Shown here: one piece after another, positions 1,294 to 19,362 of the stretch
How positions within the stretch are numbered: the stretch's first letter is position 1
How the letters are laid out: each line of letters starts with the position of its first letter
Assembly: GCF_009695745.1 (NCBI RefSeq)
Contig: NZ_VUNH01000006.1
Location: 62,001 to 126,000 of the forward strand
Source of the DNA: Pyramidobacter porci
GTDB taxonomy: Bacteria; Synergistota; Synergistia; Synergistales; Dethiosulfovibrionaceae
Reading direction: 5' to 3'
Length of the DNA stretch: 64,000 nt
Notes under the pieces: generated by a model
Databases searched by the model: none
What the model was told of the DNA's origin: nothing
Seen by the model: only the letters and a program-made list of their open reading frames with translations
Made by a program: the position numbers and the translations under genes

Positions 1294-1325
1294 TTAAAAA
1301 ACACGTTTTCTGCTGGGGAAAGTTC

Positions 1326-2228: not shown

Positions 2229-2392
2229 CGCTGTGTTCCTCTCATCATTTCAAAAGATTCTGTTTCGGAGAGAAAGCATTGTATTTTACGGAGCCGCGCC
2301 CCGTTGCAAAACGATGAAACAGCTTTGACCATTTTGAATGAAGGTCATCTAACGCGTCTATTTTATCAAAAAGTAAGGAGCTACGATCACAT

Positions 2393-3937: not shown

Positions 3938-3942
3938 CACAA

Positions 3943-3988
3943 TTGCCCCACTCGCCAGCACTTGCTGCTAGCGCGCGGGGTAATTTTT
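3943..3988 (+). terminator. Rho-independent terminator after the deacylase gene
   Basis: TTGCCCC pairs with GGGGTAA around a nested CAGCA/TGCTG hairpin and is followed by TTTTT. It starts six bases after the deacylase stop codon. Confidence 0.6.
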
Positions 3989-4045
3989 CTTTCGGTATTT
4001 CATATTCATCCAATACTCTTGAATACTCGTATCAAAATCTTGATC

Positions 4046-4900: not shown

Positions 4901-5020
4901 TGCAGCTCCACCTCGATTTATATCCATCATAACAAATTTCCGCTTGAATCACATCATGAATATCTCAGAAGATGAAGATCTCAAGGGTTTAATAAAGTTT
5001 TTCTCATTCATTCAAAAAAA

Positions 5021-5038
5021 TTTGTCCATGTATACAAA
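5021..5038. promoter_or_regulatory. Candidate RpiR operator, TTTGT-N8-ACAAA
   Basis: Inverted repeat in the AT-rich spacer between the divergent RpiR gene and the cyclodeaminase operon, just upstream of the candidate promoter at 5056-5083. Assignment to RpiR rests on position only. Confidence 0.3.
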
Positions 5039-5055
5039 ATAATTTTATTTTTTTG

Positions 5056-5083
5056 TTGAAAGAAAAAAATTTTATGCTAGCAT
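5056..5083 (+). promoter_or_regulatory. Candidate sigma-70 promoter of the cyclodeaminase operon
   Basis: TTGAAA, 16-base spacer, then TAGCAT preceded by TG (extended -10). It lies 67 bases before the start codon at 5150. Confidence 0.4.
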
Positions 5084-5149
5084 TAAATTACATCATACGA
5101 TGTTACAAAAACAGTTCGGCGAATTTTATTCCAAAAGGAGCGCGACGCA

Positions 5150-6178
5150 ATGAGTACTTCACATCTCGAAATTTTATTTTTGAACAACGAGGAGGTCAAT
5201 TCTCTAGCGGGCAATTCTATGCCGGATGTTATTCACGATATCGAACGAGTTCTCTCGATGCTTGACAAGGGAGAAGCAATCAATGCCGGTAAAATCGTTC
5301 TTCATTGGGGAAAAACCATCGAAGAAGAGAACATTTATGGGCGCATCAATGCCATGCCAGGTTTTGTCGGCGGCGAATACAACATGGCTGGCATTAAATG
5401 GATTGGCAGCAATCCCAACAACTACAAACAAGGACTGCCGCGTGCAACCGTAACCGTGATTCTGAACGATCCAATATCTAAAGTGCCGGTATGTATTTCT
5501 GACGCGACCACGGTCAGCGCCAAGCGTACTGGCGCCGTTGCCGGATTGGCGATGAAGTACCTCGCGGTGCAAAACGCACAAACAATGACGATATTCGGTG
5601 CGGGGGCACAGTCGCGTACGCAGCTCGAAGCCGCCATGGTCGTTCGTCCGTCCATCAAGGAAGTTTATATTACTGACATCGTATTTGAACGCGCCGAAAG
5701 CTACGCCGCGGAAATGACCGCAAAGTATCCCGGTCTCAAAGTTACGGCAGTTCAAGACGCCTCTGATGCCTGCAGAAAGAGCGACATTATCAGCACTGTA
5801 ACCATTGCGACAGAGCCTGTTGTGCAGGCGGAATGGATTAAAAAGGGCGCTCTCATGATCAATAATGCTGATTATGAATACACATATGACTGCGTAAAGT
5901 TGGCCGACAAGATTTTCGTTGATACATGGGAAACTATCAAACATCGTATGATTAGCACTGTAGCTCTGATGTGGCGAGATGGTCTGTTTAAGGACGAACA
6001 GATCACGGCTGAGCTTGGTGAGATTATCAACGGCAAAAAGAAAGGGCGTGAGAATGACGAAGAAACAATTTACTTTAACGCCGTCGGTATGGGCATCGAA
6101 GATATCGCTGTCGTGACCAGGGCTTATCATAAGGCCGTGAAACAGGGCGTAGGTACTAAAGTTCCGTACTGGGTATAA
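5150..6178 (+). CDS. Ornithine cyclodeaminase / mu-crystallin family protein
   Basis: 342-residue NAD(P)-dependent enzyme of the ornithine cyclodeaminase family, which includes ornithine and lysine cyclodeaminases, alanine dehydrogenase, and opine-catabolism and ketimine reductase members. The Rossmann nucleotide site reads TMTIFGAGAQSRTQLEAAM around residue 145. The N-terminal substrate domain contains the family's PGFVGG...AGIKWIGSNPNNY signature near residues 64-85, and SDATTVSAKRTGAVAGLA follows. The start has a good ribosome site (AAGGAG). It is the first gene of an apparent operon with a GltS-like symporter and an octopine/nopaline dehydrogenase family gene. That company favours opine or imino acid chemistry over simple ornithine-to-proline conversion, but the substrate is not determinable here. 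Confidence 0.88.
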   Translation: MSTSHLEILFLNNEEVNSLAGNSMPDVIHDIERVLSMLDKGEAINAGKIVLHWGKTIEEENIYGRINAMPGFVGGEYNMAGIKWIGSNPNNYKQGLPRATVTVILNDPISKVPVCISDATTVSAKRTGAVAGLAMKYLAVQNAQTMTIFGAGAQSRTQLEAAMVVRPSIKEVYITDIVFERAESYAAEMTAKYPGLKVTAVQDASDACRKSDIISTVTIATEPVVQAEWIKKGALMINNADYEYTYDCVKLADKIFVDTWETIKHRMISTVALMWRDGLFKDEQITAELGEIINGKKKGRENDEETIYFNAVGMGIEDIAVVTRAYHKAVKQGVGTKVPYWV

Positions 6179-6206
6179 CCCTCCGCCTCGCTCTATTCTG
6201 ATACTA

Positions 6207-6335
6207 CTTCTCAATTAAAAGGTCGAACGCAAGGGCGCTGCAAGGGAGATTCACAAAGCGAGCTACACAGACTGCGCAGCAGTCGAGTATGTTCGATCGA
6301 CTGAACTTCCTCGCAGTGCCCCGTAAACTATGTTA
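6207..6335 (+). repeat. Structured intergenic element, copy 1
   Basis: About 130 bases with clear similarity to 8950-9092; by eye the ~67-base core from 6242 is roughly four-fifths identical. Predicted fold: a closing stem GGGCGCTGC (6233-6241) with GCAGTGCCC (6313-6321), and an internal hairpin GACTG-CGCAG-CAGTC (near 6270-6284). It lies between the cyclodeaminase stop and the symporter start, so it could be a leader RNA for the symporter or a mobile miniature element. It does not match the riboswitch signatures I can recall. Confidence 0.55.
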
Positions 6336-6416
6336 ATGTGTTTTATCAAGAAGAAGTATAAGATTCTCAGACAAATATTATGATGGGTCTATATTTTTGA
6401 GAAAGGAGTCCCCACT

Positions 6417-7799
6417 ATGTTCCCTCTGGAAAAAATCACAGGCGGTACGCTCAATAATCTGCTGTTTTATATCAGCATCGTCGGTTTATTGCTTGTCGTC
6501 GCAAGCCTTATCCGGCTTAAAGTCCGTTTTTTGCGCAAGGCGTTTATCCCCGCTTCCTTGCTGGGAGGTCTCATCGGGTTAGCTTTAGGGCCACATGCGT
6601 TGAAAATTATTCCTGCGACGATGATGACATCTATCGGTTCTTTGCCGGGAACAATGATTACGATCGTCTTCTCATGCATGCTGTTGGGAGTCAAAAAAGA
6701 AGAAACGGGGGCGCATGCTCTTCATGACAGCGTGACGGGGCTTCTGTGGCTCTGGTCAAATAGTTTCATGCAGGTAGGCGCTACCTCGTTGCTGTGCGCT
6801 GTCGCGCTGATCCCAATTTTCAATATTAACCCGCTGTTCGGCTCTCTCTTCGAAATTGGTTTTGCCGGAGGCCATGGAACGGCGGGCGGCATGGCATCGC
6901 TCTTCGAAGATCCGACATTGCTTAATTGGAGCGACGGCGCATCGCTGGCGCCTACCGTCGCTACCATTGGTCTCCTGGTCGGCATTTTTGGCGGAATGGT
7001 AGCCATTAACTACGGCGTTCGCAAAAGATACACAAAAATTTTAGCGGAACCCGCGCAGGGCAACGATGTACTTGAAATTTATCCCGAAGGCAACCGCTCG
7101 GCAAGCTCTAACATGACTGTCAGCCAAGATGTTGTCGAACCTTTTGCCCTTCATTTAGGCGTCATTGGTATCGCTGTTATTATAGGTCGCTTGATCGTCT
7201 GGGGGGTTGGCATTGTCTTCAAGTACAAGGGTTTGCCGCTCTTCCCCTTCGCCATGATCGGCGGTTGGATGATCAACTTCGTTATTCAGCACAGCTCGCT
7301 CCGCGATTTGTTCGACCGCGCTACGTTTCAGCGCATTCAGGGCATGGCCCTTGAAATTTTGATTGTCGCAGCGATGGCTTCTATTAAGATTCCAGTTGTG
7401 GTCGAATATTGGATGCCGCTGCTGATTGCCACTGTCATTATTACAGTCTTCATGTATTTCTGGCTGTTCTGGCTGAGCCCGCGCGTTTTTTCCCATTGTT
7501 GGTTTGAGCAGGGCATCATTCGATTCGGTGCATTTACTGGTGTAGCCGCTGTTGGCTATATGCTGCTTCGTACGTCAGATCCTAAGATGGAAACGGATGC
7601 TGGAACCATTTATGCTCTTGGGTGTCCTCTCATGAGCCCTTTTATCGGCGGTGGGCTAGTGACGACAATGTATCCGTACTTTATCAAAAACTTTGGCGCA
7701 CTGGCGGCAGGGTTGACTCTCTGTACGGCTTCAATTGCCCTGATCGTTGTGATGCGTTTGTTCTTCTGGAATAGGACTATTCAGAAACAACAGCGATAA
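6417..7799 (+). CDS. Sodium/glutamate symporter-like permease (GltS family)
   Basis: 460-residue inner-membrane transporter related to GltS, which imports glutamate with sodium. About ten to twelve hydrophobic segments are visible in two inverted halves, including the glycine-rich re-entrant region FAGGHGTAGGMASLFEDP near residues 150-167, a hallmark of the GltS fold. A hydrophilic loop (residues about 200-240) separates the halves. The start follows GAAAGGAG. It is slightly longer than enteric GltS (about 400). Its position between a cyclodeaminase and an opine dehydrogenase suggests it carries an amino acid or opine-type dicarboxylate rather than necessarily glutamate. Confidence 0.87.
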   Translation: MFPLEKITGGTLNNLLFYISIVGLLLVVASLIRLKVRFLRKAFIPASLLGGLIGLALGPHALKIIPATMMTSIGSLPGTMITIVFSCMLLGVKKEETGAHALHDSVTGLLWLWSNSFMQVGATSLLCAVALIPIFNINPLFGSLFEIGFAGGHGTAGGMASLFEDPTLLNWSDGASLAPTVATIGLLVGIFGGMVAINYGVRKRYTKILAEPAQGNDVLEIYPEGNRSASSNMTVSQDVVEPFALHLGVIGIAVIIGRLIVWGVGIVFKYKGLPLFPFAMIGGWMINFVIQHSSLRDLFDRATFQRIQGMALEILIVAAMASIKIPVVVEYWMPLLIATVIITVFMYFWLFWLSPRVFSHCWFEQGIIRFGAFTGVAAVGYMLLRTSDPKMETDAGTIYALGCPLMSPFIGGGLVTTMYPYFIKNFGALAAGLTLCTASIALIVVMRLFFWNRTIQKQQR

Positions 7800-7828
7800 G
7801 TCTATTCTATGCGAGAGGAAGCTTTTTT

Positions 7829-8944
7829 ATGGAAGCGAGTGTTACAGTTATTGGTGCAGGGAATGGCGGAACGGCGATCGCCGCATACCTTTCCAGCCAA
7901 GGCGTAAAAGTAAATCTATGTGACCTTTTTCCACAGTACATTACAGGCATTCAACAAGCAAGTGGCATTAATCTAACTGTGAACGGGCGAACATCACACT
8001 GTCAGTTGAATTTAGTGACGACTGATATTCCTCTTGCCATTCAGGATATTCATTTGATCATGGTTGTCACACCTTCTTTTACTCATCGGTTGATTGCAAA
8101 AGCTTGTTGCAATGCGTTGGAAGAGGGACAGACTGTTATCTTGAATCCTGGACGTACTGGAGGAGCTTTGGATTTTCTTAATGTAATCCGTAGTCGGGGC
8201 TGCAAGGCTGACGTTACTATTGCGGAGGCACAGACACTGATCTATGCTTGTCGTAAGACGGGGCCCTCGTCTGTGGAAATCAGTGGTATAAAGAAAAAGA
8301 TCCTTCTGGGAGCTCTTCCGGCAAACCGTACGGAACAGGTATTGGTAATGCTCAAGCCTTTTTATCCACAGTTCGTAGCAGCGAAGAACTGTCTGGAGAC
8401 AAGTCTTTCTAACATTGGTGCGCTTTTCCATCCAACTCCGCTGTTGCTGAATATCGGCAGGGTTGAGAGTGAAACTGGTGGTTTTCGTTATTACCTTGAT
8501 GGGATTTCCCCTTCCGTGGCTGTTCTGGTCAAGGAGATTGACAATGAACGTATGGCCGTTGCCGCTGCTTATGGTGTGAGCGTCCTCAGTGCAGAAGAAT
8601 GGCTGGTTGAATCGTATGATACTCATGGAGAGGATTTGTATCATTTGATTCAGAATAATGCCGCCTACAGCACAATCAAGGCACCAAAGACAATTGATGC
8701 CCGTTATATTACTGAGGATGTTCCAATGAGCCTTGTGCCAATCTCCGAGCTGGGGCGTAAAGCGGGCATTGCCACGCCTAATATCGACGCTGTTATCCAG
8801 CTGACAAGCGCAATCTATAAACGAGATTTCCGAGCGAGCGGCCGCTGTTTAAAGAATCTTGGTCTTGACAGTATGGAGAGGGAACAAATTATTCATTATT
8901 TTGAGACTGGCAGCCTGGCAACAGTTGATCCAAATTGGCATTAA
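7829..8944 (+). CDS. NAD/NADP octopine/nopaline dehydrogenase family protein
   Basis: 371-residue two-domain dehydrogenase. The N-terminal Rossmann domain opens with VTVIGAGNGGTAIAAYLSSQ (residues 5-24). The C-terminal half is the all-helical octopine dehydrogenase domain, with SNIGALFHPTPLLLNIGRVE near residue 195 containing the conserved catalytic-type histidine. Members reductively condense an amino acid with a keto acid (or the reverse) to make or break opines, including staphylopine-type metallophores. No nicotianamine synthase-like partner is seen here, so metallophore synthesis is not supported. It lies 29 bases after the symporter and is probably cotranscribed. Direction of reaction and substrates unknown. 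Confidence 0.87.
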   Translation: MEASVTVIGAGNGGTAIAAYLSSQGVKVNLCDLFPQYITGIQQASGINLTVNGRTSHCQLNLVTTDIPLAIQDIHLIMVVTPSFTHRLIAKACCNALEEGQTVILNPGRTGGALDFLNVIRSRGCKADVTIAEAQTLIYACRKTGPSSVEISGIKKKILLGALPANRTEQVLVMLKPFYPQFVAAKNCLETSLSNIGALFHPTPLLLNIGRVESETGGFRYYLDGISPSVAVLVKEIDNERMAVAAAYGVSVLSAEEWLVESYDTHGEDLYHLIQNNAAYSTIKAPKTIDARYITEDVPMSLVPISELGRKAGIATPNIDAVIQLTSAIYKRDFRASGRCLKNLGLDSMEREQIIHYFETGSLATVDPNWH

Positions 8945-8949
8945 TAACT

Positions 8950-9092
8950 ATTTCTTAATTAAAACACTGAATAGCAATGGCGTCTCGAGGGAGATCCACA
9001 GAGCGAGTTACGCAGACTGCGCAGCCGGTGAGATAGTTCCGAGCAACTGAACTTTTCTTGAGGTGCTTCAGGACCGTCGTTAAACTATTCTA
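8950..9092 (+). repeat. Structured intergenic element, copy 2
   Basis: Diverged second copy of the element at 6207-6335, starting a few bases after the opine dehydrogenase stop. The closing stem is preserved with different bases: GCGTCTCGAG (8980-8989) pairs with CTTGAGGTGC (9057-9066) through Watson-Crick and wobble pairs, while the internal ACTG...CGGT hairpin (around 9016-9028) changes with it. Base changes that keep pairing argue for an RNA or cruciform structure under selection. Confidence 0.55.
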
Positions 9093-9165
9093 TTAAAAAT
9101 TAGTATTAGAATCCATGCCTGTTCCAATCACTGGCATGAGGATACTACCCTTTCTCCATCGTACA

Positions 9166-9540
9166 TGTCCCCATTATGGCCAACATGGAGATATCCCCCC
9201 TTGGATCTGGAGGCGTTTGAGCTGGGTTCAACGCTCGTTGAAGTAGAAAGCAAAATCCACTGGATTAGGTGTCCCGAGCATGGAGTCTCTGTCACTGCTG
9301 TCTCGTGGGCATATCCGGGGAGTCATCTCACCAAGGATTTTGACCTCACGATCGGTCGTTTTGCCGTTTATCTTCCCCGTGGTAACGTCTCGAAGTCCAT
9401 GCAGATTGACGGGCCGTTGGTAGCAGTGTCCACCGTATGCCCCATATCATTGAGCCGAAGCGTTCCAGACGTCTTGAGCACTTTATGAATCTCGGTATCG
9501 ATTCTTTCCACACTGTCGAATGAGCCATGGACATCTTGGA
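9166..9540 (+). mobile_element. ISL3-family transposase relic (frameshifted)
   Basis: Conceptual translation in shifting frames gives CPHYGQHGDIPP, then LDLEAFELG...KIHWIRCPEHGVSVTAVSWA...HLTKDFDLTIGRFAVYL, then MPHIIEPKRSRRLEHFMNLG, which follows the N-terminal zinc-binding and helix-turn-helix part of ISL3-type transposases. At least two frameshifts and a stop (TGA before AMDILDQV) break it, and the second zinc-site cysteine is Tyr. The DDE catalytic domain is absent, and I see no terminal inverted repeats. It is a dead remnant marking the right edge of the lower-GC block. Confidence 0.65.
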
Positions 9541-9562
9541 TCAGGTTTGAGGATTTTACTTC

Positions 9563-9793
9563 TTAATCACAAATTAGAAGGGCCTGGTCCTTATAAACAC
9601 TGAAATGAGGAGCGATTTTACCCCACCCTTCCTCCCTAAGATTCTGAAGATCACGAAAAATCTGCTCTATGATGTCGATTCGTTTGCCGGTCAGCGATAC
9701 AAAAACCTGCATGAACCCGAAACCAAGCAGGGAAATGAAGATCAGCAGCAAGTCAATGCCTCGCCGCCGCGTGTTGATATATGTTTTGATCAC
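9563..9793 (-). CDS. Small hypothetical membrane protein
   Basis: 76 codons from a GTG start preceded by AAAGGGGG; an upstream ATG at 9832 gives 89 residues but lacks a good ribosome site. One hydrophobic segment (LLLIFISLLGFGFMQVFVSL) lies between a basic N-terminus (KTYINTRRR) and a charged C-terminus, giving a probable single-pass topology. No family recognised. It sits between a transposase relic and yitT, so it could itself be a fragment of a larger lost gene. Confidence 0.35.
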   Translation of the reverse strand: MIKTYINTRRRGIDLLLIFISLLGFGFMQVFVSLTGKRIDIIEQIFRDLQNLREEGWGKIAPHFSVYKDQALLICD

Positions 9794-9931
9794 GTTAAAC
9801 CCCCTTTCATTTTGGGGGAAGATGCTGGCCATTAGAGTGTTGTCCTTTGTCTCTTGTATGCAAATAAATGTAACATAAAAGAGACAGCGGAGTCCTCAGG
9901 AACTTCACGGTCTCTTTTTGTTGATAAAATG

Positions 9932-10816
9932 TTATTCTTCCCACTTCTGGAACCCCTTGCCCAGCACTTCCGAGGCGACGGAGAGGCGCAGGAAGGCGTT
10001 GGGGTCGTGTTCTTTGAGGAACAGCTTGAGCTGGATCTCCTGGCGCGGAGCGAGCAGGGTGATCAGCACGTGACGGGGATCGGAGTTGAAGCCGCCGCGG
10101 GCGTCGAAAATCGTCACGCCGCGGTGCAGCGTGTAGACGATGTAATTGCGCACCAGCTCCGCTTCGCTGGTGATGATCATGGCTTCCTTGCGCGAGGAGA
10201 AGGCCCGCAGGTCTCCGTTCATGACCAGCGACGTGATGTAGGACAGCAGCAGTCCGTAGACGACGTTCTCGACCGACACGACCCAGAAAAACAGCAGGAT
10301 CACGGCGAAGTTCAGCAGCATCGAAATGTTGCCCAGCTCCACGCCCGTTTTGCGCCGCACCGCGACGCACACGATGTCGATGCCGCCGGTCGAACCGCCG
10401 CCGGAAAACACCGTCGCCAGCGCGATGCCGTGCAGCACGGCCGCGACGACGACCAGCAGCATACGGTCGGCGATGACCGGCGCGGGGAAGCGCGCGAAAA
10501 ATTCCATGCCCAGCGACATCAGGACGGTGGAGTAGAGCGTCCAGTAGAAAAAGCGCTTGGGAAGCATCTTATAAGCGAAAAGGAAAAGCGCGAAGTTGAA
10601 CACGGCGTTGCTGAGCCCCAGAGGAATGCCGCTGAGGTAGTTGAGGAACAGGCAGACGCCCATGACGCCCGTGTTGGGCAGCATCGCCGGCTTGATGAAA
10701 AAGACGGTGCCGACGCAGTAAAGCAGGGTGCCGACGGTGGTGACGAAAAAAGTCCGCAGTTCCTCTTTCAGCGCTTCGGGCGTGACGCGCAGACGCGCTG
10801 CGATGTTTTCAAGCAT
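9932..10816 (-). CDS. YitT family membrane protein (DUF161/DUF2179)
   Basis: 294-residue integral membrane protein. Residues about 30-205 hold five to six transmembrane segments with the YitT signature NTGVMGVCLFLNYLSGIPLG and FSGGGSTGGIDIVCVAVRR. Residues about 215-285 form the cytoplasmic DUF2179 domain (RGVTIFDARGGFNSDPRHVL, then EHDPNAFLRLSVASEVLGKGF). Function of the family is not established. The start has GTAAGGAG upstream. Apparently monocistronic; a TTTATCA-TACC-TGATAAA palindrome lies about 50 bases upstream. Confidence 0.9.
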   Translation of the reverse strand: MLENIAARLRVTPEALKEELRTFFVTTVGTLLYCVGTVFFIKPAMLPNTGVMGVCLFLNYLSGIPLGLSNAVFNFALFLFAYKMLPKRFFYWTLYSTVLMSLGMEFFARFPAPVIADRMLLVVVAAVLHGIALATVFSGGGSTGGIDIVCVAVRRKTGVELGNISMLLNFAVILLFFWVVSVENVVYGLLLSYITSLVMNGDLRAFSSRKEAMIITSEAELVRNYIVYTLHRGVTIFDARGGFNSDPRHVLITLLAPRQEIQLKLFLKEHDPNAFLRLSVASEVLGKGFQKWEE

Positions 10817-10862
10817 GGATTGATCCGCTCCTTACCATGATGTTCATTGTACCGCGATCCTG

Positions 10863-10880
10863 TTTATCATACCTGATAAA
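10863..10880. promoter_or_regulatory. Perfect palindrome TTTATCA-TACC-TGATAAA upstream of yitT
   Basis: 7-base arms with a 4-base centre in the yitT upstream region, in a position suited to an operator. No cognate regulator is identifiable. Confidence 0.3.
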
Positions 10881-10971
10881 ACCTCAAAAGAGAATTCCCA
10901 GCGTCGGAAAGCCGAGCGAGACATATAGTTTCCTTACGGAACAAACGGCCGTTCCCGACGAAAAGTACGAA

Positions 10972-11001
10972 AAAGCCCCGCCGTGCAGACGGCAGGGCTT
11001 T
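10972..11001 (-). terminator. Terminator of the tRNA transcript
   Basis: On the minus strand AAAGCCCTGCCGT pairs with ACGGCGGGGCTTT, followed by further T residues, ten bases after the CCA end of tRNA-Gly. Confidence 0.75.
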
Positions 11002-11010
11002 CATTCTTCA

Positions 11011-11085
11011 TGGAGCGGAAGACGGGATTTGAACCCGCGACCCCAACCTTGGCAAGGTTGTGCTCTACCCCTGAGCTACTTCCGC
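11011..11085 (-). tRNA. tRNA-Gly (anticodon GCC)
   Basis: 75 bases including encoded CCA. Acceptor GCGGAAG pairs with CTTCCGC, the D-arm reads AGCTCAGGGGTAGAGC, the anticodon arm carries GCC in ACCTTGCCAAGGT, and the T-arm is GCGGGTTCAAATCCCGT. Nine bases after tRNA-Asp in the same transcript. Confidence 0.95.
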
Positions 11086-11093
11086 GTGGAGAA

Positions 11094-11170
11094 TGGCGGG
11101 GCTGAAGAGACTCGAACTCTCGACCTCCGGCGTGACAGGCCGGCGCTCTAACCGACTGAGCTACAACCCC
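11094..11170 (-). tRNA. tRNA-Asp (anticodon GTC)
   Basis: 77 bases including encoded CCA. Acceptor GGGGTTG with CAGCCCC (one wobble), D-arm AGCTCAGTCGGTTAGAGC, anticodon loop CTGTCAC, T-arm GAGAGTTCGAGTCTCTT. First gene of the two-tRNA transcript. Confidence 0.95.
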
Positions 11171-11189
11171 ATCCACGAACGCGACACGT

Positions 11190-11218
11190 AATATACCAAA
11201 CTTGGATTCCTTTGTCAA
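11190..11218 (-). promoter_or_regulatory. Strong sigma-70 promoter of the tRNA-Asp/tRNA-Gly operon
   Basis: On the minus strand TTGACA, exactly 17 bases, then TATATT, ending 20 bases before tRNA-Asp. The -35 is a consensus match. Confidence 0.8.
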
Positions 11219-11347
11219 AGGGCAATTTAAAGCTTCGATCTTTGTCAAGCGTTCTTCCTGTGACCGCACGCCTGAGTCTTATAGATTTTGTGATTGAGGC
11301 ATTTTAAACAGTGAAAGAACACTATATAATGAAAAACGCCGCACAGA

Positions 11348-11641
11348 ATGGCGCAGCCCACAAAGAGGCATGGATTGGGGATGGTCGCCGCGCGCCCCGA
11401 CGCCATCGGGCCGAGCGGCGGCAGCGGCGGTTGCCAGCCCCGCGTGGAGAAGCGCATCTTCCTCGCCGACCGCGCCGGGTGTCTGATCCCCGTCGGCAGT
11501 CAAACGCTGAAGGCGCAGACGCCGCACCGCGTTTTCTTTTTCCGGGACGAAAAATGCGCCGTCAGGCTTGCTGCCCCCGTCCGGCATCCCGCCGACGACG
11601 AAGCGGCCGAAAAGGAGCGCCTGAGACGGCAGCTGGTGTGA
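11348..11641 (+). CDS. Hypothetical protein (doubtful)
   Basis: 97-codon frame, or 86 if started at the ATG at 11381. The C-terminal two thirds (RIFLADRAGCLIPVGS, TPHRVFFFRDEKCAVRL, then a charged tail) read like protein, and a TATAAT at 11325-11330 points this way. No clear ribosome site and no family recognised. The opposite strand also has open frames, so coding is uncertain. If real, it would be the first gene before the DUF917 cluster. Confidence 0.3.
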   Translation: MAQPTKRHGLGMVAARPDAIGPSGGSGGCQPRVEKRIFLADRAGCLIPVGSQTLKAQTPHRVFFFRDEKCAVRLAAPVRHPADDEAAEKERLRRQLV

Positions 11642-11704
11642 TTTCGGACTGGCCGTCGTTCGTTTTCAAGAAAAAATCCGATTTTCGAGAACGGGGGAAA
11701 TCTC

Positions 11705-12559
11705 ATGAAAGTGCAGATTTCGTTGACTGTGGAGGCGGGCAAGCGTCTGATCGTCAAGGCGATCCTTTCGCTGCCCGCCGTTCGGAGAGCGCTGGCGGAA
11801 GGGCAGCTGCTCCTCAAGGGCGGCACGACCGTTTCGCTGCTCTCCGAGGCGGCGTGCGGCGTTCCGCTGAAAATCTGCGGCCGCATCGACCGCCGGGGCG
11901 CGGGGAGCTGCGCCGGAAGCTGCGCGGCCCCTCACAGCCTTTTGCTGCGCCGGGGCGTTCCCGTGCCGCTGGACGTCGGGATTTGGTCTTCCGGGAAATT
12001 GAAATTCTCGCCGGGCGACGTCTGCGTGATCGGCGCCAATCTCGTGGACCGTCACGGACGCGCGGCGATGCTGGCCGGAAGCCCTTTCGGAGGCGCGCTG
12101 CATTTCTTCACGGCGCTTCCCGCCGAAGGCGTGGAGACGATCGTCGCCGCCGGGTTCGAAAAATACGCGCCCTGTTCGCTGGACGACGCCATGGCCGTCG
12201 CGTCGCGCGCCGCCCCCGATCTGTCCATGGGCATGGCGGCAGGTCTGATTCCCATCCCCGGCCGCGTGATCAACGAAGCGGAAGCCTGCAGGATCCTCGG
12301 CGCCGCGGAAGCGCAGATCGTCGCGCGGGGCGGCATCCAGGGAGCGGAAGGCGGCTGCACGCTGCTGGCGAGCTTTGACGAACGCCCCCAAGGCGAGGCG
12401 TTCTTCAACGAAATTCTGGCGTTGGCCGGCACGGTTTTTCAAAAAAGCGCGGGCGACGCAAAGTCGCTGAAAAGCTGTCTTGACAACGCCTGCGGCCCGG
12501 CCGGCGCGGAGCACCGCGGCTGCTGGTACCGAAGCCGCCGCGGAGAACTTCCGGTCTAG
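11705..12559 (+). CDS. Hypothetical protein at head of the DUF917/DUF1177/AroM cluster
   Basis: 284 residues, good ribosome site (GGGGGAAA region) and codon use like its neighbours; no family recognised with confidence. The N-terminal half contains GQLLLKGGTTVSLLSEAACG (residues 33-52) and GDVCVIGANLVDRHGRAAML (about 102-121), a pattern of glycine loops after hydrophobic strands reminiscent of CoA-transferase or LUD-type folds, but this is only suggestive. A conserved-looking GLIPIPGRVINEAEA follows near 180. A run of cysteines (CGVPLKICG, CAGSCAAPH) at residues 51-78 is notable. No signal peptide. It ends 10 bases before the PucR gene, so they are probably cotranscribed. Confidence 0.75.
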   Translation: MKVQISLTVEAGKRLIVKAILSLPAVRRALAEGQLLLKGGTTVSLLSEAACGVPLKICGRIDRRGAGSCAGSCAAPHSLLLRRGVPVPLDVGIWSSGKLKFSPGDVCVIGANLVDRHGRAAMLAGSPFGGALHFFTALPAEGVETIVAAGFEKYAPCSLDDAMAVASRAAPDLSMGMAAGLIPIPGRVINEAEACRILGAAEAQIVARGGIQGAEGGCTLLASFDERPQGEAFFNEILALAGTVFQKSAGDAKSLKSCLDNACGPAGAEHRGCWYRSRRGELPV

Positions 12560-12569
12560 GACGGACGCC

Positions 12570-13682
12570 ATGTTTACCGTTGCCGACATGCTCAGGCTGC
12601 CCGTTTTCGCCGGCCATGAGATCGCGGCGGGCAAAAACGGGACGGGGCGCCGCGTCCGTTTCGTCGATTTCATCGAGATCCCCGATCCTTCCGGCTGGTG
12701 CCGTCCCGACACGTTTTCCTTCACGACCGGCTATGCCTTCCGCAACAACCCCGAGCAGATCTGCCGCATCGTCCGCGTTCTGAGCGCAGGAAGAGCCGCC
12801 GGTCTGGGCGTCAAACTGGGCCGCTTTATCAGTTCGATCCCGCCGGAAGCGTTCCGCCTCGCCGACGCGCTGGATTTCCCATTGGTCATTCTGCCCAAGA
12901 GACTGGCCTACGCCGTCGTCTCGCGCGTCGTCATGCGGGAAATATTCCGCAGCGAGCGGAGCTGCCGCGACGACGGCGGGCCGCTCGGCCTTTTTCAGCT
13001 CGAGCAGGATCCCGTCGGTCTGCTCGAGGCGCTGAGACGGCAGGGTTGGGAAAGCTCCCGCAACGTGTGGAGCCTGCAGTGGGAAAAACTGCCGCCGCAA
13101 CGTCCGTCGCTGCCGCCGCAGCGCGCTTCCCAGTACAGCGCCAACGGCTCCCTGCGCATGCTTGTCGCCCAGCTGCCCGGCGAGCGGACAGAACACTTCG
13201 TCGAATTTTTGAAATGCCATCTGCCGCTCCAGCTGGAAGGCCAAAGCCTCGGGATCTCCGGCCCCGCGCCGCTGGAAAATATCGCCCGGAATTTCGCGGA
13301 AGCGAAAACGGCCCTGCAGCTTGGCGCGCAGCTCGGCTTCGACGAAGGCGTTTTCGTCTACTCGGAGCTGGAGCTTCTGGACCTTCTCAAAAAGAACCGG
13401 CCGCTGCCCGAACTTCGCGAAGCCGCCTCGCGTTGCCTGCGTCCTCTCTTCGACGAAGACGCGAAAAAGCATTCCAGCCTCGCGCAGACCCTTCGCGTCT
13501 GGTTCGCCTGCGACGGCTCCTCCGAAAAAGCCGCCCAGCGGCTCCACATCCACCGCAACACCCTGCTCTACCGCCACAAACGGATCATGGAACTCCTCCC
13601 GCTGAACCGATACGGCTCAACGATTTTCCGTCTGGCGTTGTTTCTGGAACACAAAAAAGACAGCGAAGAATGTCCATGCTGA
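12570..13682 (+). CDS. PucR family transcriptional regulator
   Basis: 370 residues. The N-terminal PucR sensor domain (residues about 1-115) opens with MFTVADMLRLPVFAGHEIAAG. A variable middle region includes NIARNFAEAKTALQLGAQLG near 240. The C-terminal HTH_30 domain ends the protein (SSEKAAQRLHIHRNTLLYRH, residues about 318-337). PucR-type regulators control purine, amino acid and polyamine catabolism. The frame is open further upstream, but the ATG at 12570 starts the domain and follows the previous gene by 10 bases. Likely controls the adjacent OPT/racemase/DUF917/DUF1177/AroM genes, whose upstream region carries AT-rich inverted repeats. Confidence 0.87.
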   Translation: MFTVADMLRLPVFAGHEIAAGKNGTGRRVRFVDFIEIPDPSGWCRPDTFSFTTGYAFRNNPEQICRIVRVLSAGRAAGLGVKLGRFISSIPPEAFRLADALDFPLVILPKRLAYAVVSRVVMREIFRSERSCRDDGGPLGLFQLEQDPVGLLEALRRQGWESSRNVWSLQWEKLPPQRPSLPPQRASQYSANGSLRMLVAQLPGERTEHFVEFLKCHLPLQLEGQSLGISGPAPLENIARNFAEAKTALQLGAQLGFDEGVFVYSELELLDLLKKNRPLPELREAASRCLRPLFDEDAKKHSSLAQTLRVWFACDGSSEKAAQRLHIHRNTLLYRHKRIMELLPLNRYGSTIFRLALFLEHKKDSEECPC

Positions 13683-13733
13683 AAGCCGCCAAAGGAACGC
13701 GTCGTCGCGCGACGCTTTCCCCGGCGGCTTTTT
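13682..13733 (+). terminator. Terminator after the PucR gene
   Basis: AAAGCCGCC pairs with GGCGGCTTT and continues in T residues, with an inner GCGTC/GACGC stem. It overlaps the stop codon of the PucR gene and separates it from the transporter operon. Confidence 0.7.
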
Positions 13734-13770
13734 ATTGTGCATCGGCACAACTAAATACTGTGTTTTTATG

Positions 13771-13839
13771 CAATAATATATTTATTGTATTATTTCGAAT
13801 GATAAAATTAAATACAATCTCGAACGGGAACTTTATAAT
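13771..13839 (+). promoter_or_regulatory. AT-rich control region of the OPT operon with two inverted repeats
   Basis: An AT-rich block in otherwise GC-rich DNA. It holds CAATAA-N5-TTATTG (13771-13787) and ATTGTATT (13784-13791) with AATACAAT (13811-13818), then a TATAAT at 13834-13839, 74 bases before the transporter start. Candidate PucR binding sites by position. Confidence 0.45.
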
Positions 13840-13912
13840 CAGAGAATTTATTTATAGTGATTCCTTTCGAGAAATTTTCATGATTTCCAACGAAGATCAG
13901 GAGGTCAGTCAC

Positions 13913-15544
13913 ATGCCAGAAGAGAAGAGAATTCCGCACGTCAAGGCTTTCGAAGGGCAAACGTTCGTCATCAGCGTCATGGTTTCCGTCTTTTCGGCGG
14001 TCATCTGTATGCAGATCATCTCCCGCATCGGCACGACGCCGAACACCTCCGTCATCGGCGCGCTGTTCGCCATGGCGCTCGCCAGGATCCCCTTCGCCAG
14101 TCTGGGGCGGTTCCGCAGCCTGGACCGCCAGAATCTGGTGCAGACGATGGCCTCGGCCGCCGGATTCGGCGCGGCGAACTGCTGTCTGCTTGCCGTGGGG
14201 ATCATCTACGTTTTCGGCGATTCTTCCCTGATTCTGCCGATGCTCGTCGGCTCCGGCATGGCGACGCTGATCGGCATGCATTTGGTCTATTCGTTGTTCG
14301 ATTCGGAAATGTTCCCCGCCCGGGAATCGTGGGCGCCTGGCATCGCCACCGCAGAGGCGCTGATCGCCGGGGACGAGGGCGGCAAAAAAGGGCGCACGCT
14401 TCTAAGCGGCATCGTTCTGGGCGCGCTCGGCGCCGGATGCCGGATCAAGCCGTTCCTCGCCGGCGGCATCCCGATGGCCGGCGTGGGCATCGCGTTTATC
14501 GCCAACCCGTGGGCCATGTCGGCGCTGGCGGCGGGTCTTCTGATCCGCGGCTACTATCCGAGCCTTGTCCCGTGGCTCGGTTCTCTTGGGCTGACGAATC
14601 TCCCGGCGGATCTCGGGAAAACGTACATCCCGCACGGCTTCATGATCGGCGCCGGGTTGATCTCGCTGGTCCAGGCGCTCGTCATGATCTTCAAAAAATC
14701 CGTCCGCGAGTTTTCGTCCGAAAGCGCGCCTACGGTGACTCACGCAGCGGCGAAAAAGGCCATCGCCGCCCATATTGGATATTTTGCCGCCGCGGCCGTC
14801 GTTCTGGCGTTCATCACCGGCTTTATGACGTCCATGGCAACGCCTCGGCTGCTTCTTTGGATTTTCTGGTGCACGTTCTCGTCCATCGCGGCGGCGATCC
14901 TGGTCGGGCTGTGCGCCATGTTCTCCGGCTGGTTCCCGGGTTTTGCCGTGACGGTGATTTTCGTCAGCCTCGGCCTGTTCATGGACTTTCCGCCGGCGGC
15001 GCTGGCGGTGCTGGCCGGTTTTGTCTCCAGCACGGGGCCGTGCTTCGCCGACATGGGCTATGACCTGAAGACGGGCTGGATCATCAGGGGCAGCGGCAAA
15101 AACCGCGAATACGAACTGGACGGGCGCTGTCAGCAGATGTTCTCCGAGCTCTTCGGCGGCCTGATCGCCGCCGTGGTCGTCGGACTTTTGATGAGGATGC
15201 ACTTCAATCTCAATCTGCTCCCGCCCGTCAGCCGGGTCTTCGCGGCCACAGTCCAGGCGGGCTCCGATTATGCGATCCTGCTTGAAATGCTGTGCTGGGC
15301 CGTCCCCGGCGCGCTCCTGCAGGTCGTCGGCGGGTCGAAAAAGGCGCTGGGGATCCTCTGCGCCACGGGGCTGCTGATACGCAACCCCATCTACGGCGTC
15401 GGTCTGGTGGTCGCTCTGATTCTGCGGGCGCTCTTCATCAAAAACCACGAAGAAGCGATGCAGCTTTACGGCGCGGGCTTCGTGGCCGGCGACGGGCTTT
15501 TCGGCTTCTTCAACGCTATCGGGCGTTCCTTCGGTTGGTGGTAA
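13913..15544 (+). CDS. OPT family (oligopeptide transporter superfamily) membrane protein
   Basis: 543-residue permease with about 13-15 hydrophobic segments. The OPT signature is visible at ESWAPGIATAEALIAGDEGG (residues about 141-160), matching the family's conserved PxGxATAE motif. Bacterial members take up peptides or modified amino acids. The start at 13913 follows GGAGG; a longer open frame upstream has no ribosome site. Residues about 380-405 (DLKTGWIIRGSGKNREYELD) form a hydrophilic loop. First gene of a five-gene run (OPT, racemase family, DUF917, DUF1177, AroM) with gaps of 12-67 bases, so it probably supplies the substrate of that pathway. Confidence 0.85.
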   Translation: MPEEKRIPHVKAFEGQTFVISVMVSVFSAVICMQIISRIGTTPNTSVIGALFAMALARIPFASLGRFRSLDRQNLVQTMASAAGFGAANCCLLAVGIIYVFGDSSLILPMLVGSGMATLIGMHLVYSLFDSEMFPARESWAPGIATAEALIAGDEGGKKGRTLLSGIVLGALGAGCRIKPFLAGGIPMAGVGIAFIANPWAMSALAAGLLIRGYYPSLVPWLGSLGLTNLPADLGKTYIPHGFMIGAGLISLVQALVMIFKKSVREFSSESAPTVTHAAAKKAIAAHIGYFAAAAVVLAFITGFMTSMATPRLLLWIFWCTFSSIAAAILVGLCAMFSGWFPGFAVTVIFVSLGLFMDFPPAALAVLAGFVSSTGPCFADMGYDLKTGWIIRGSGKNREYELDGRCQQMFSELFGGLIAAVVVGLLMRMHFNLNLLPPVSRVFAATVQAGSDYAILLEMLCWAVPGALLQVVGGSKKALGILCATGLLIRNPIYGVGLVVALILRALFIKNHEEAMQLYGAGFVAGDGLFGFFNAIGRSFGWW

Positions 15545-15588
15545 GCGCATTCCATCTTCGCGCCGCCGTGAAAGGATGTGAAAATTCG

Positions 15589-16239
15589 ATGTCGGAAAAG
15601 AAAAAAATCGGTCTGATCCGCGTCCTGACGACGCAGGATCAGGAACTGCTCCAGCTTCACGGGCGTATGATCGAATCGTGTTTTCCCAGCCTGTCCGTCG
15701 AATCGCGGTGCATCGCCGATCAGGATGAAGGGATCCATGACGAGGCAAGTCATGCGAAGGCGCTGCCCAAGGTGCTGGCGCTGGGGCGCGTTTTCGCGGA
15801 CGAAAACGTCGACGCCGTCTATATCAGCTGCGCCGGCGATCCCGGCGTCAGGATCCTGCAGCGGGAACTCGCCGTTCCGGTCATCGGCGCCGGCACGGCG
15901 ACGGCGCACGCGGCCGGCGCTTACGGGGTTCCCGTAGGGGTATTGGGGATCACGGACGACGTGCCGGAAGAGATCGCAAAAGTTTTAGGAGAACGGATCG
16001 TCGGCTCTCTGCGCCCGCCGCAGCTCCATACGACGCTGGATCTGTTCCGCCCCGACGCGATGGACGCGCTCGCGGAAGCCGGCCGTGCGCTGAAAAGCAA
16101 AGGCGCCAAGCTGCTTCTTCTGGCCTGCACAGGGTTGGCGACGATCAACGCCGCTCCGGAGCTGCGCCGCCGCGTCGGACTGCCGGTGCTGGATCCGCTG
16201 CGCTGCGCGGCCGCCTGCCTGTGGTCGGCTTTGTGTTGA
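15589..16239 (+). CDS. Aspartate/glutamate/hydantoin racemase family protein
   Basis: 216-residue cofactor-independent racemase-fold protein. The two catalytic-type cysteines are present: Cys81 in VYISCAGDPGV and Cys180 in LLLACTGLATI. The N-terminus (IGLIRVLTTQDQELLQLHGR) resembles hydantoin or Asp/Glu racemases. Length is slightly short but complete for the family. It lies between the OPT transporter and DUF917, the latter often found beside hydantoin metabolism genes, so racemisation of a hydantoin or amino acid derivative is plausible. Substrate not determinable. Confidence 0.85.
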   Translation: MSEKKKIGLIRVLTTQDQELLQLHGRMIESCFPSLSVESRCIADQDEGIHDEASHAKALPKVLALGRVFADENVDAVYISCAGDPGVRILQRELAVPVIGAGTATAHAAGAYGVPVGVLGITDDVPEEIAKVLGERIVGSLRPPQLHTTLDLFRPDAMDALAEAGRALKSKGAKLLLLACTGLATINAAPELRRRVGLPVLDPLRCAAACLWSALC

Positions 16240-16252
16240 AGGAGGCGCTTGC

Positions 16253-17332
16253 ATGTCTCGGTTGAAACTGACTCAGGAACACGTGGAAGCCGCGCTGCTG
16301 GGCGGCTGTTTTCTCGGCGGGGGCGGCGGCGGTTCAATGGCCAAGGGACGCGCGCTCGGCGAAGCCGCGCTTGCGGCCGGCCCGCTCGAGCTCGTCTCTC
16401 TGGACGAAATCGATCCCGAAGCGATCGTCGTCACCTGCTCGGCCGTCGGCGCTCCGGCCGCCAAGGAAGCGCTGGCCACGCCCGAAGCGGCCGTGCGCGT
16501 TATCGAACTTCTGGCAAAGCTGGACGCCCCGCCTCCGGCGGGGCTGATCACCAACGAAAACGGCGGCGGCTCGACGTTCAACGGTTGGCTGCCGGCGGCC
16601 ATGAGCGGGCTGCCGCTGATCGACGCGCCGTGCAACGGGCGCGCGCATCCCACCGGTGCCATGGGATCCATGGCGCTGCACCGCGACAATCGTTACGTCT
16701 CGAAACAGACCGCCGCGGGAGGCAATCCCGAAACGGGGCGTTACCTCGAAGCGGCTTTCAGCGGCCCCATGGAGTCCGTAGCGGCGCTCGTGCGGCAATG
16801 CGCCGTTCAGGCCGGCGGACTGGTCGCGGTCGCCCGCAACCCGGTCAAAGCCCATTATTTGAAAGAACATGCCGCGCCGGGAGCCGTAACGCTGGCCATC
16901 GAGACGGGGACGAAGATGCTTGAAGCCCGTTCCCGCGGAGCCGAAGCCGCCGTTCGGGCCGCGGTCGATTTTCTCGGCGGCCGCGTTGTCACGGCGGGCA
17001 CGGTGGATACCATCGACCTGACAACCGAAGGCGGCTTCGATCACGGCGTCGTTTCCGCAGGCGGGTGTGAACTGACGTTCTGGAACGAGTTCATGACGCT
17101 GGACCGCGGCGGCGAACGGCTGGGGACTTTCCCCGATCTGATCATGACCACGGACGCAGAAACCGGACTTCCCATCACCACGGCGGAGCTCGCAAAGGGG
17201 CGGCGCGTTTTCGTGACACTGATCCCTGCGGACAAGATCCCTCTTGGTGCAGGCATGTCCTGCCGGGAACTTTTGGAACCTATCGAGAAGGTCGTCGGCA
17301 GGGCCGTGTTGCCCTACATCACGCTGAAGTAG
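16253..17332 (+). CDS. DUF917 domain-containing protein
   Basis: 359-residue protein of the DUF917 family, whose biochemical role is not established and whose members often accompany hydantoinase-type genes. The N-terminus has the characteristic glycine run GGCFLGGGGGGSMAKG (residues 14-29). Further conserved-looking segments are LITNENGGGSTFNGWLPAA near 98 and the ANDs-like MGSMALHRDNRY near 138. The C-terminal region (DLIMTTDAETGLPITTAELA, residues 301-320) matches the family end. A strong ribosome site (GGAGG) precedes the start, 13 bases after the racemase gene. Confidence 0.88.
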   Translation: MSRLKLTQEHVEAALLGGCFLGGGGGGSMAKGRALGEAALAAGPLELVSLDEIDPEAIVVTCSAVGAPAAKEALATPEAAVRVIELLAKLDAPPPAGLITNENGGGSTFNGWLPAAMSGLPLIDAPCNGRAHPTGAMGSMALHRDNRYVSKQTAAGGNPETGRYLEAAFSGPMESVAALVRQCAVQAGGLVAVARNPVKAHYLKEHAAPGAVTLAIETGTKMLEARSRGAEAAVRAAVDFLGGRVVTAGTVDTIDLTTEGGFDHGVVSAGGCELTFWNEFMTLDRGGERLGTFPDLIMTTDAETGLPITTAELAKGRRVFVTLIPADKIPLGAGMSCRELLEPIEKVVGRAVLPYITLK

Positions 17333-17399
17333 CGCGATCGCCGCGTTCCCAATTGTCGAAGATCAAAAATGGACGCAAAAAATCGAGGAGGTACCGCAC

Positions 17400-18362
17400 A
17401 TGTCACTTTTTCATACGATGAACGCTCTTGAACTGCTCGACTCGCCGTCCGCAAGCGGCGAGAGCGTCAAAAAGGCGCTGACGGCCGCCGGCGTGCCGGA
17501 AAGTCAGATCTCCGTCAAAACCGTTCACGGCCCCAAAGGCAGCACCAATTTCGTCAAAACGTGGTTCTACGGTTCCGAAGGCAAACACAACGGCGGCACG
17601 GCGCCGACCATCGGCATCGTCGGCCGTCTCGGCGGTGTCGGCGCGCGTCCCGAACGGATCGGTCTCGTTTCCGACGGCGACGGCGCCGTGTCGGCCGTAG
17701 CCGTCGCCATGAAGCTGGGCGATATGGCCCAAAAAGGCGACGTCCTCAAAGGCGACGTGTTCGTCTCCACTCACATCTGCCCCAATTCTCCCACCCGCCC
17801 TCACGATCCCGTGCCTTTCATGGGTTCTCCCATCAACATGACCATCGCCAACCGCGAGGAAATGGGCGAGGAGCTGGACGCCGTTCTCTCTATCGACACG
17901 ACGCGCGGCAACCGGATCGTCAATACCCGCGGCTTCGCCATCTCGCCGACGGTCAAGGAGGGCTGGATCCTGCGCGTCAGCGAAGATCTGCTCGAGATCA
18001 TGAGCTCCGTCACAGGGGAGCTGCCCAAGGTCTTCGCCCTCAGCATGACCGACATCACGCCTTACGGCAACGGGCTCTACCATTTGAACAGCATCCTCCA
18101 GCCCTGCACGGCCACCAGGGCGCCGGTCGTCGGCGTGGCGCTGACGTCGCAGACGACAGTCCCCGGCTGCGCCACGGGCAGCTCCCAGCCTGCGGACATC
18201 GAGGCGGCCGTGCGCTTCGCCGTCGAAACGGCGAAAGCGTTCGGCGAGGGCAAGTGCAAGTTTTACGACGAAGAAGAGTTTGCGCTCACCCTCAAGCGCT
18301 ACGGAGCCATGAACAAACTTCAGGGCATGGGCGCTCTGCCGCCGGCGGATCCTCAGGCGTAA
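17400..18362 (+). CDS. DUF1177 domain-containing protein
   Basis: 320-residue soluble protein that I recognise as DUF1177, a bacterial and archaeal family without assigned function. Typical segments: TIGIVGRLGGVGARPERIGL near residue 62, GDVFVSTHICPNSPTRPHDP near 119 (conserved His/Cys/Asp set, possibly metal binding), and SIDTTRGNRIVNTRGFAISP near 162. Good ribosome site (GAGGAGG). The gap to DUF917 is 67 bases, to AroM 12 bases. Co-occurrence with OPT, DUF917 and AroM suggests one pathway; the reaction is unknown. Confidence 0.87.
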   Translation: MSLFHTMNALELLDSPSASGESVKKALTAAGVPESQISVKTVHGPKGSTNFVKTWFYGSEGKHNGGTAPTIGIVGRLGGVGARPERIGLVSDGDGAVSAVAVAMKLGDMAQKGDVLKGDVFVSTHICPNSPTRPHDPVPFMGSPINMTIANREEMGEELDAVLSIDTTRGNRIVNTRGFAISPTVKEGWILRVSEDLLEIMSSVTGELPKVFALSMTDITPYGNGLYHLNSILQPCTATRAPVVGVALTSQTTVPGCATGSSQPADIEAAVRFAVETAKAFGEGKCKFYDEEEFALTLKRYGAMNKLQGMGALPPADPQA

Positions 18363-18374
18363 GGGGCCCCGGCC

Positions 18375-19049
18375 ATGACTTTGCGCGTAGGGGCCGTTAC
18401 CATTGGGCAAACGCCAAGAGTGGATGTTACGCCCGATCTCATGAAAATTTTGGGTCCGGAAGTCGAACTCGTCGAATCGGGAGCGCTGGACGGCTTGGGC
18501 GCAGAACAGATCGCCGCCATGGCGCCGCGCCCGGGCGATTATGTGTTGGTCACGAGGATGGCCGACGGCACGTCTGTGAAAATCTGCGAACGTGCAGTGA
18601 CACCTCTGGTGCGTCAGAAGATCGCCGCTCACTTCACCGCGGGGATCCCCGCCGTCCTGCTGCTCTGCACGGGCGAGTTCCCCGACTTTCCCACCGGCGG
18701 GCTGCTGCTGAGGCCGCAGAAAATTCTGTTCAACATGGTCCAGGCCGTCGTTCCGGCCGGCGCGAAACTCGGCGTCTTCATGCCGTCGCCGGACCAGCTG
18801 GAACAGTCGTCGCAACGCTGGTCGCAGGTCACGCCGCAAAATCGTTCGATCGGCGCGTCGCCTTACGTCCGTCCCGAAGAGACGATCCCCGCCGCGGCTG
18901 AAGAACTTGCCCGCTGGGGCGCCGACGTGTTCGTCATGGACTGCATGGGCTACACGCTGGCGATGAAGGAACAGGTTCGCCGAATTACCGGCAAGCCCGT
19001 GGTCCTCGCCCGCTCCATCGCCGCGCGGGCGCTGCGCGAGCTTGTTTAG
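18375..19049 (+). CDS. AroM family protein
   Basis: 224 residues. The signature N-terminus reads VGAVTIGQTPRVDVTPDLMK (residues 5-24), as in the AroM family named after an E. coli gene beside aroL whose function is unknown. The fold resembles the Asp/Glu racemase superfamily: Cys in AVLLLCTGEFPDFP (near residue 97) and Cys in VFVMDCMGYTLAMK (near 194) sit where the paired racemase cysteines would be. It starts 12 bases after DUF1177 and is the last gene of the cluster. Confidence 0.87.
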   Translation: MTLRVGAVTIGQTPRVDVTPDLMKILGPEVELVESGALDGLGAEQIAAMAPRPGDYVLVTRMADGTSVKICERAVTPLVRQKIAAHFTAGIPAVLLLCTGEFPDFPTGGLLLRPQKILFNMVQAVVPAGAKLGVFMPSPDQLEQSSQRWSQVTPQNRSIGASPYVRPEETIPAAAEELARWGADVFVMDCMGYTLAMKEQVRRITGKPVVLARSIAARALRELV

Positions 19050-19118: not shown

Positions 19119-19179
19119 TTTTTCGCAAACCAAGTCATTGCAATGAGTCAACTTACATGATGTAAAAGAAATAGACATT

Positions 19180-19217
19180 CGGCCCGTTCCGGTTTCGCGC
19201 CAAACCGGAACGGGCCG
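19180..19217. terminator. Perfect 16-bp hairpin, GC-rich hairpin family member 1
   Basis: CGGCCCGTTCCGGTTT pairs perfectly with AAACCGGAACGGGCCG across a 6-base loop. It lies in the 313-base gap between two convergent transcripts (AroM on plus, efflux operon on minus) and has only weak T-runs. Related hairpins occur at 26023 and 36215. Nothing else but the parS site is seen in this gap. Confidence 0.5.
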
Positions 19218-19362
19218 AGCGTCGTCTGACGGCTTTCGTCGACAGGAGGACACGTTTTTCGGCATGGACAGGGACTGCGGTCAAGGGAGCTGCCGCGGTC
19301 CACAAATATCGCCGTATGAGAAACGCGCGAAATGAAGTTTGCGCTTCGCAAGCGCGAAAAAG

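Follow-up and report, generated by a model that had tools for sequence, protein, structure and literature searches.

Gene content of the locus

The window is a 64,000-nucleotide stretch of Pyramidobacter porci DNA (contig NZ_VUNH01000006.1, positions 62,001 to 126,000), in which an earlier note, made from the sequence without database searches, had described seven same-strand genes with small gaps and inferred a complete uptake-and-degradation route, with stereoinversion steps, for a peptide-like or cyclic nitrogen compound. The genes code for a protein without a named family (G1), a PucR-family regulator, an OPT-family transporter, a racemase-fold protein (RAC), DUF917, DUF1177 and AroM. All seven open reading frames were found on the + strand where the note had placed them (Table 1), but they probably do not make a single run. 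A strong hairpin with a T-run follows the PucR gene, and 180 bp of AT-rich DNA separates this hairpin from the start of the OPT gene; for this reason, the locus probably comprises two transcription units, one with G1 and PucR and one from OPT to AroM. The PucR gene adjoins the same gene set in other genomes (loci L031, L111, L113-L115, L122-L124, L173 and L174 of the survey below).

Table 1. Genes and terminator-like features of the operon region, in positions of the window
Feature	Position	Strand	Supporting evidence
G1, 284 aa	11705-12559	+	No Pfam or NCBIfam match; belongs to the gene set by the neighbourhoods of its relatives
PucR-family transcription regulator	12570-13682	+	PF07905, 105 bits; PF13556 (HTH_30), 56 bits
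Terminator-like hairpin and T-run 3' of PucR	13681-13732	+	-33.2 kcal/mol; z -5.3 against shuffles
OPT-family transporter	13913-15544	+	PF03169, 54.9 bits (cut-off 25.8), E 8e-15
RAC, hydantoin/Asp-Glu racemase-fold protein	15589-16239	+	PF01177 (Asp_Glu_race), 79.6 bits (cut-off 31)
DUF917 / S-Me-THD-like protein	16253-17332	+	PF06032 and PF20906 (S-Me-THD_N/C), 78.8 and 93.8 bits (cut-off 27)
DUF1177	17400-18362	+	PF06675, 431 bits
AroM	18375-19049	+	PF07302, 257 bits; NCBIfam PRK10481, 215.9 (cut-off 198)
Terminator-like 17-pair inverted repeat 3' of AroM, closing the operon	19179-19218		

The gene set recurs in bacteria and archaea

DUF1177 was used as the only query against one-per-species genomes, so that loci were chosen independently of their neighbours, and the sample was limited to 80 loci. 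Within 6 kb of DUF1177, AroM was present in at least 50 of the 80 loci, OPT and DUF917 in at least 37 each, RAC in at least 34, an M29-like hydrolase in at least 18 and a peptide ATP-binding cassette (ABC) importer in at least 11. These counts are lower bounds since many contigs end early; the loci are not independent events, and gene calls in the relatives were mechanical. The recurrent co-occurrence that the earlier note had proposed to look for is thus very strong, in bacteria and archaea alike. Among 188 Synergistota genomes, 27 code for DUF1177, 26 for AroM and 23 for both (Fisher p ~2e-22, uncorrected for relatedness), and the two genes are adjacent in many loci.

The order PucR-OPT-RAC-DUF917-DUF1177-G1-AroM-M29-like is kept in both Synergistota and Clostridia. 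Related arrangements occur in Thermococcus, Sulfolobales, Desulfurococcales, Geocrenenecus, Halobacteria, Lachnospiraceae, Actinobacteria and Acidobacteria. DUF1177 loci were also found in Thermoplasmata, Streptomyces, Kribbella and Spirochaetes. OPT, DUF1177 and AroM stand alone in the neighbourhood in Streptomyces, Kribbella and Acidobacteria.

G1 lies ahead of the PucR gene in Pyramidobacter and between DUF1177 and AroM in many other Synergistota that carry the set. When 291 genomes from the class to which Dethiosulfatibacter belongs were searched, G1 was retrieved in PucR-OPT-RAC-DUF917-DUF1177-G1-AroM-M29-like operons with small variations (L173-L175). Two fusions of G1 with AroM were found, one in Dethiosulfatibacter (L066) and the other in L175. 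Because of this position in relatives and of the two fusions, G1 genuinely belongs to the gene set. Its C-terminus carries a Cys/His motif (C258, H270 and C273), the Cys/His residues being conserved in the alignment of relatives. The structural model has a predicted local distance difference test score (pLDDT) of 77, with a best Foldseek match at E 0.0044 and with eIF2B, MtnA and CoA transferases among the best matches at E 0.004-0.2, which weakly suggests a NagB/RpiA/CoA-transferase-like core. Short relatives of G1 (243 aa) were also seen in four Synergistota genomes, directly 5' of genes resembling threonine synthase (L144, positions 1480-2208; L145, L146 and L152). Genes that resemble those for homoserine kinase, aspartokinase and aspartate-semialdehyde dehydrogenase (by eye) follow in L180.

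DUF1177 occurs without nearby AroM, OPT, racemase or DUF917 in the Bathyarchaeota loci L035, L045, L050, L051, L055 and L104, and several of these have a metallo-beta-lactamase-like gene (by eye) just 5' of DUF1177. UspA and M24, conserved neighbours in Bathyarchaeota, were rejected as functional partners and taken as lineage synteny.

Two racemase-like proteins with paired cysteines

RAC belongs to the Asp/Glu/hydantoin racemase superfamily, as it scores over the PF01177 cut-off and has both cysteines. These are C81 and C180, as the earlier note had stated, and both are invariant in 53 of 53 relatives. The note had also attributed a racemase-like cysteine pair to AroM, which we located at C98 and C190, invariant in 69 of 69 relatives; on the strength of this pair, AroM is a putative racemase. 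In sequence searches against the PDB, RAC matched 2eq5, a "hypothetical hydantoin racemase" (E 6e-56), and the peptide epimerase OpaE (9qbx, E 4.5e-7), while AroM returned nothing useful. The similarity of RAC covers hydantoin, allantoin and peptide-derivative epimerases. OpaE is a fungal biosynthetic enzyme of the same superfamily with low similarity to RAC; it epimerises a peptide-derived ring, which shows that peptide derivatives are possible substrates of Asp/Glu-family enzymes (PMC12661438).

DUF917 belongs to a family with named desulfurases

The earlier note had assigned three of the soluble proteins to families without known function. For DUF1177 and AroM, the open literature yielded no role unrelated to this gene set. 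The DUF917 family is no longer functionless, since it contains named (thio)hydantoin desulfurases. DUF917, the sole PF06032 gene in this genome, matches over its full length the models for thiohydantoin and S-methyl thiohydantoin desulfurases (NF058529 and NF058532) with 278.8 and 272.9 bits, and its PDB match, 2o3i, is an unnamed protein. These desulfurases being its nearest named families, the operon could serve (thio)hydantoin catabolism from ergothioneine or related thio-histidines, with DUF917 removing the sulfur, the racemases handling the stereocentre and the hydrolases freeing the amino acid. We consider this improbable. The two scores are far under the NCBIfam cut-offs of 440 and 450, and the gene context differs from that of the desulfurases. 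Ergothionase and thiourocanate-hydratase genes were not seen among the recurrent neighbours, and the single aromatic lyase of the genome lies on a different contig and has no match among the NCBIfam models. Thiohydantoin catabolism would also leave OPT and the dipeptidases described below unexplained.

DUF1177 is predicted to adopt a zinc-exopeptidase fold

Structure prediction, which the earlier note had recommended for finding active sites, was informative for DUF1177 and gave for G1 only the weak likeness described above. The AF2 model of DUF1177 (pLDDT 91.6) resembles M28, M17 and M20 peptidases (Foldseek E ~1e-8, probability 1.0, ~12% identity, TM ~0.5), and a zinc-exopeptidase fold of this type is predicted with high confidence; a PDB sequence search gave nothing useful and did not detect the peptidase likeness. 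For the metal site we used the ligand set of the M28 prototype, which we take to be His/Asp/Glu/Asp/His. The conserved residues D92/D94, D166 and H228 are candidate ligands by strand order and conservation. The first His and the Glu-Glu positions appear to be replaced (they read R-L and H-x-C); H125 and C127 are then the remaining candidates. Among named relatives of the window protein, the closest is from Pyramidobacter sp. C12-8 (94%).

Importers, hydrolases and oxidases beside the set

Importers of the Opp/Dpp peptide ABC type take the place of OPT beside DUF1177 in some loci, among them those of Geocrenenecus (L083 and L085), where OPT is absent. OPT is a broad family, some members of which transport metal-nicotianamine complexes, and an opine dehydrogenase-like gene (Pfam) lies at 7829-8944 of the window; a metal chelate or an opine-like conjugate could thus be taken up via OPT and processed. 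That is distinctly improbable, as the opine gene is non-recurrent and set apart by an opposite-strand gene and tRNAs, peptide importers replace OPT elsewhere, and no metal-uptake gene recurs.

An M29-like gene lies 3' of AroM in most relatives and is missing from the window. PepV dipeptidase genes that score over the cut-off adjoin the set in L098 and L175 and also occur in the sister cluster L178, described below; L174 has a PepD-type dipeptidase gene. Together with the OPT and Opp/Dpp importers and the exopeptidase fold of DUF1177, they would fit the scavenging of linear peptides that contain D-amino acids or are modified, for instance isopeptides: OPT would import them, DUF1177 and the M29-like protein would act as exopeptidases, and RAC and AroM would racemise residues, no ring being involved. 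The minimal OPT-DUF1177-AroM loci, which have no DUF917, also fit, as does an N-acyl-D-amino-acid deacylase-like gene (by eye) at 2393-3937 of the window. We nevertheless think linear peptides unlikely, because they leave unexplained DUF917, the oxidase pairs and the sister cluster that follow.

A pair of cyclodipeptide oxidase (CDO) genes, coding for a nitroreductase (CDOA) and a PF19585 protein (CDOB), lies inside the set in L059-L061, L082 and L087, from Lachnospiraceae and Desulfurococcales. CDOB scored over the cut-off in 11 of 38 non-Synergistota genomes. CDO is known from biosynthesis (PMC11055893), and a biosynthetic cluster for a modified cyclic peptide might therefore be envisaged. 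It is very improbable: neither a cyclodipeptide synthase nor a peptide synthetase was seen in the surveyed loci, in which no model search was aimed at them, and the importer, PucR and the dipeptidases point to catabolism.

The sister cluster (L178, positions 927-16376), found in another Synergistota genome (G013, contig 7), has neither DUF1177 nor AroM. It codes for a racemase, HyuB, HyuA, PucR, an NCS1 permease, G1, a racemase, a second racemase, DUF917, an M29/NicX-like protein, a further DUF917 and PepV. Since L178 has RAC, DUF917, G1 and PucR without DUF1177 and AroM, and other loci have only OPT-DUF1177-AroM, the window operon appears to combine two functional modules, bridged by the G1-AroM fusions. 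HyuA/HyuB, the NCS1 permease, dipeptidases, CDO pairs and peptide ABC importers among the recurring neighbours all agree with a cyclic, peptide-like amide, and to that extent with the earlier note.

Several further features were noted. The CDO subunit pairs occupy 5730-8063 of L059, 13375-15175 of L082 and 2649-5912 of L087, inside the DUF1177 set of strict anaerobes or hyperthermophiles; a frequent 125-aa cluster, "C27", was dropped as an antisense shadow of CDO genes. The second racemase of L178 is in overlapping fragments (possibly a frameshift), and a proline racemase gene lies 3' of that cluster. Two genes lie 3' of the operon in Acetomicrobium (L031, 13431-16237; L098, 13431-14892), one MOSC-like (by eye) and one of the formamidase/acetamidase family (PF03069); L031 has an amino-acid permease-like gene there as well. 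The AT-richer region 2393-8944 of the window clusters N-acyl-D-amino-acid deacylase-, ornithine-cyclodeaminase- and glutamate-symporter-like genes with the opine dehydrogenase gene, possibly as an opine or D-amino-acid route.

A proposed route for cyclic amides

The importer, the ring enzymes and the dipeptidases fit cyclic dipeptides best and hydantoins nearly as well. Our preferred reading, in which our confidence is evenly balanced, is a PucR-regulated operon by which small cyclic amides derived from peptides are taken up and catabolised; these would most likely be 2,5-diketopiperazines and possibly 5-substituted hydantoins. From the observed gene set and its recurrence, the fusions of G1 with AroM, the invariant cysteine pairs and the fold predicted for DUF1177, we infer the substrate, direction, order and every catalytic assignment of the following route. 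OPT would import the compound, a task that an Opp/Dpp ABC importer or the NCS1 permease would take over elsewhere. Through their cysteine pairs, RAC and AroM would deprotonate and reprotonate the acidic alpha-carbon, making both stereoisomers usable. DUF917 may open the ring or act on the ring amide, and DUF1177 would cleave the linear product to amino acids, with the M29-like protein and PepV dipeptidases in most relatives. G1 may act with AroM in one further step.

Several observations weigh against this route. The genome of the window has no close M29-like gene, its best match being a 31% paralogue elsewhere in the genome; HyuB (PF02538) was not found anywhere in it, the HyuA/HyuB hydantoinase being present only in L178, and CDOB was found in none of the 188 Synergistota genomes, this one included. 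For these reasons the strongest chemical markers come from relatives, and the window cannot be said to hold the "complete" route of the earlier note. DUF917 falls under the cut-off of every characterised subfamily, and DUF1177 does not plainly show the usual arrangement of di-zinc ligands. The loci with only OPT-DUF1177-AroM indicate that DUF1177 does not always require DUF917 and RAC next to it, and eight Bathyarchaeota loci have DUF1177 without the rest of the set, save an opposite-strand M29-like gene in two.

Relation to known systems

Hydantoin racemases (PF01177), DUF917, AroM, OPT and peptidase genes were reported to be enriched around CDO-like genes without a cyclodipeptide synthase, for which hydantoin- or allantoin-like substrates were suggested (PMC11055893, 2024). 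The window cluster shares the racemase, DUF917, AroM and OPT families, and CDOA/CDOB lie inside several DUF1177 clusters; the window cluster appears to be the same system from a different angle. The earlier note had called the pathway undescribed, which that report makes only partly true. No paper on the function of DUF1177 was found in the open-licence literature; DUF1177 is absent from the text of PMC11055893, whose passages considered here name no G1 or M29-like core, and the Synergistota set has no oxidase. To that report, the present analysis adds the frequent occurrence of DUF1177 with the exopeptidase fold predicted for it, G1 with its AroM fusions, an M29-like gene, the oxidase-free version, the HyuA/HyuB sister cluster and the dipeptidases.

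The hyu clusters (HyuA/HyuB, hydantoin racemase, M20 amidase and NCS1 permease) have a racemase and a transporter in common with the window, and in L178 HyuA/HyuB and NCS1 occur together with G1, DUF917 and racemases. They differ in that the window has OPT instead of NCS1, in a genome without HyuB, and DUF917 and DUF1177 as candidate hydrolases. Hydantoin-hydrolysing strains can also cleave diketopiperazines, which the ordinary peptidases tested do not (PMC3852281).

Cyclic dipeptides resist peptidases, and their microbial degradation is little known (PMC3852281). More tentatively than the route itself, we propose that the set represents an unnamed cyclic-dipeptide- or hydantoin-type catabolism across bacteria and archaea, anaerobic and independent of CDO, in which DUF1177 would be a new amide hydrolase of exopeptidase fold whose metal site is non-canonical, and AroM, coupled to G1, would invert stereocentres. 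AroM has long been an orphan in E. coli and other bacteria. The shared gene set, which links gut, soil and hyperthermophilic organisms, gives AroM, DUF1177 and G1 one testable context. If the proposal is true, these families would include new stereo-selective enzymes for cyclic amides.

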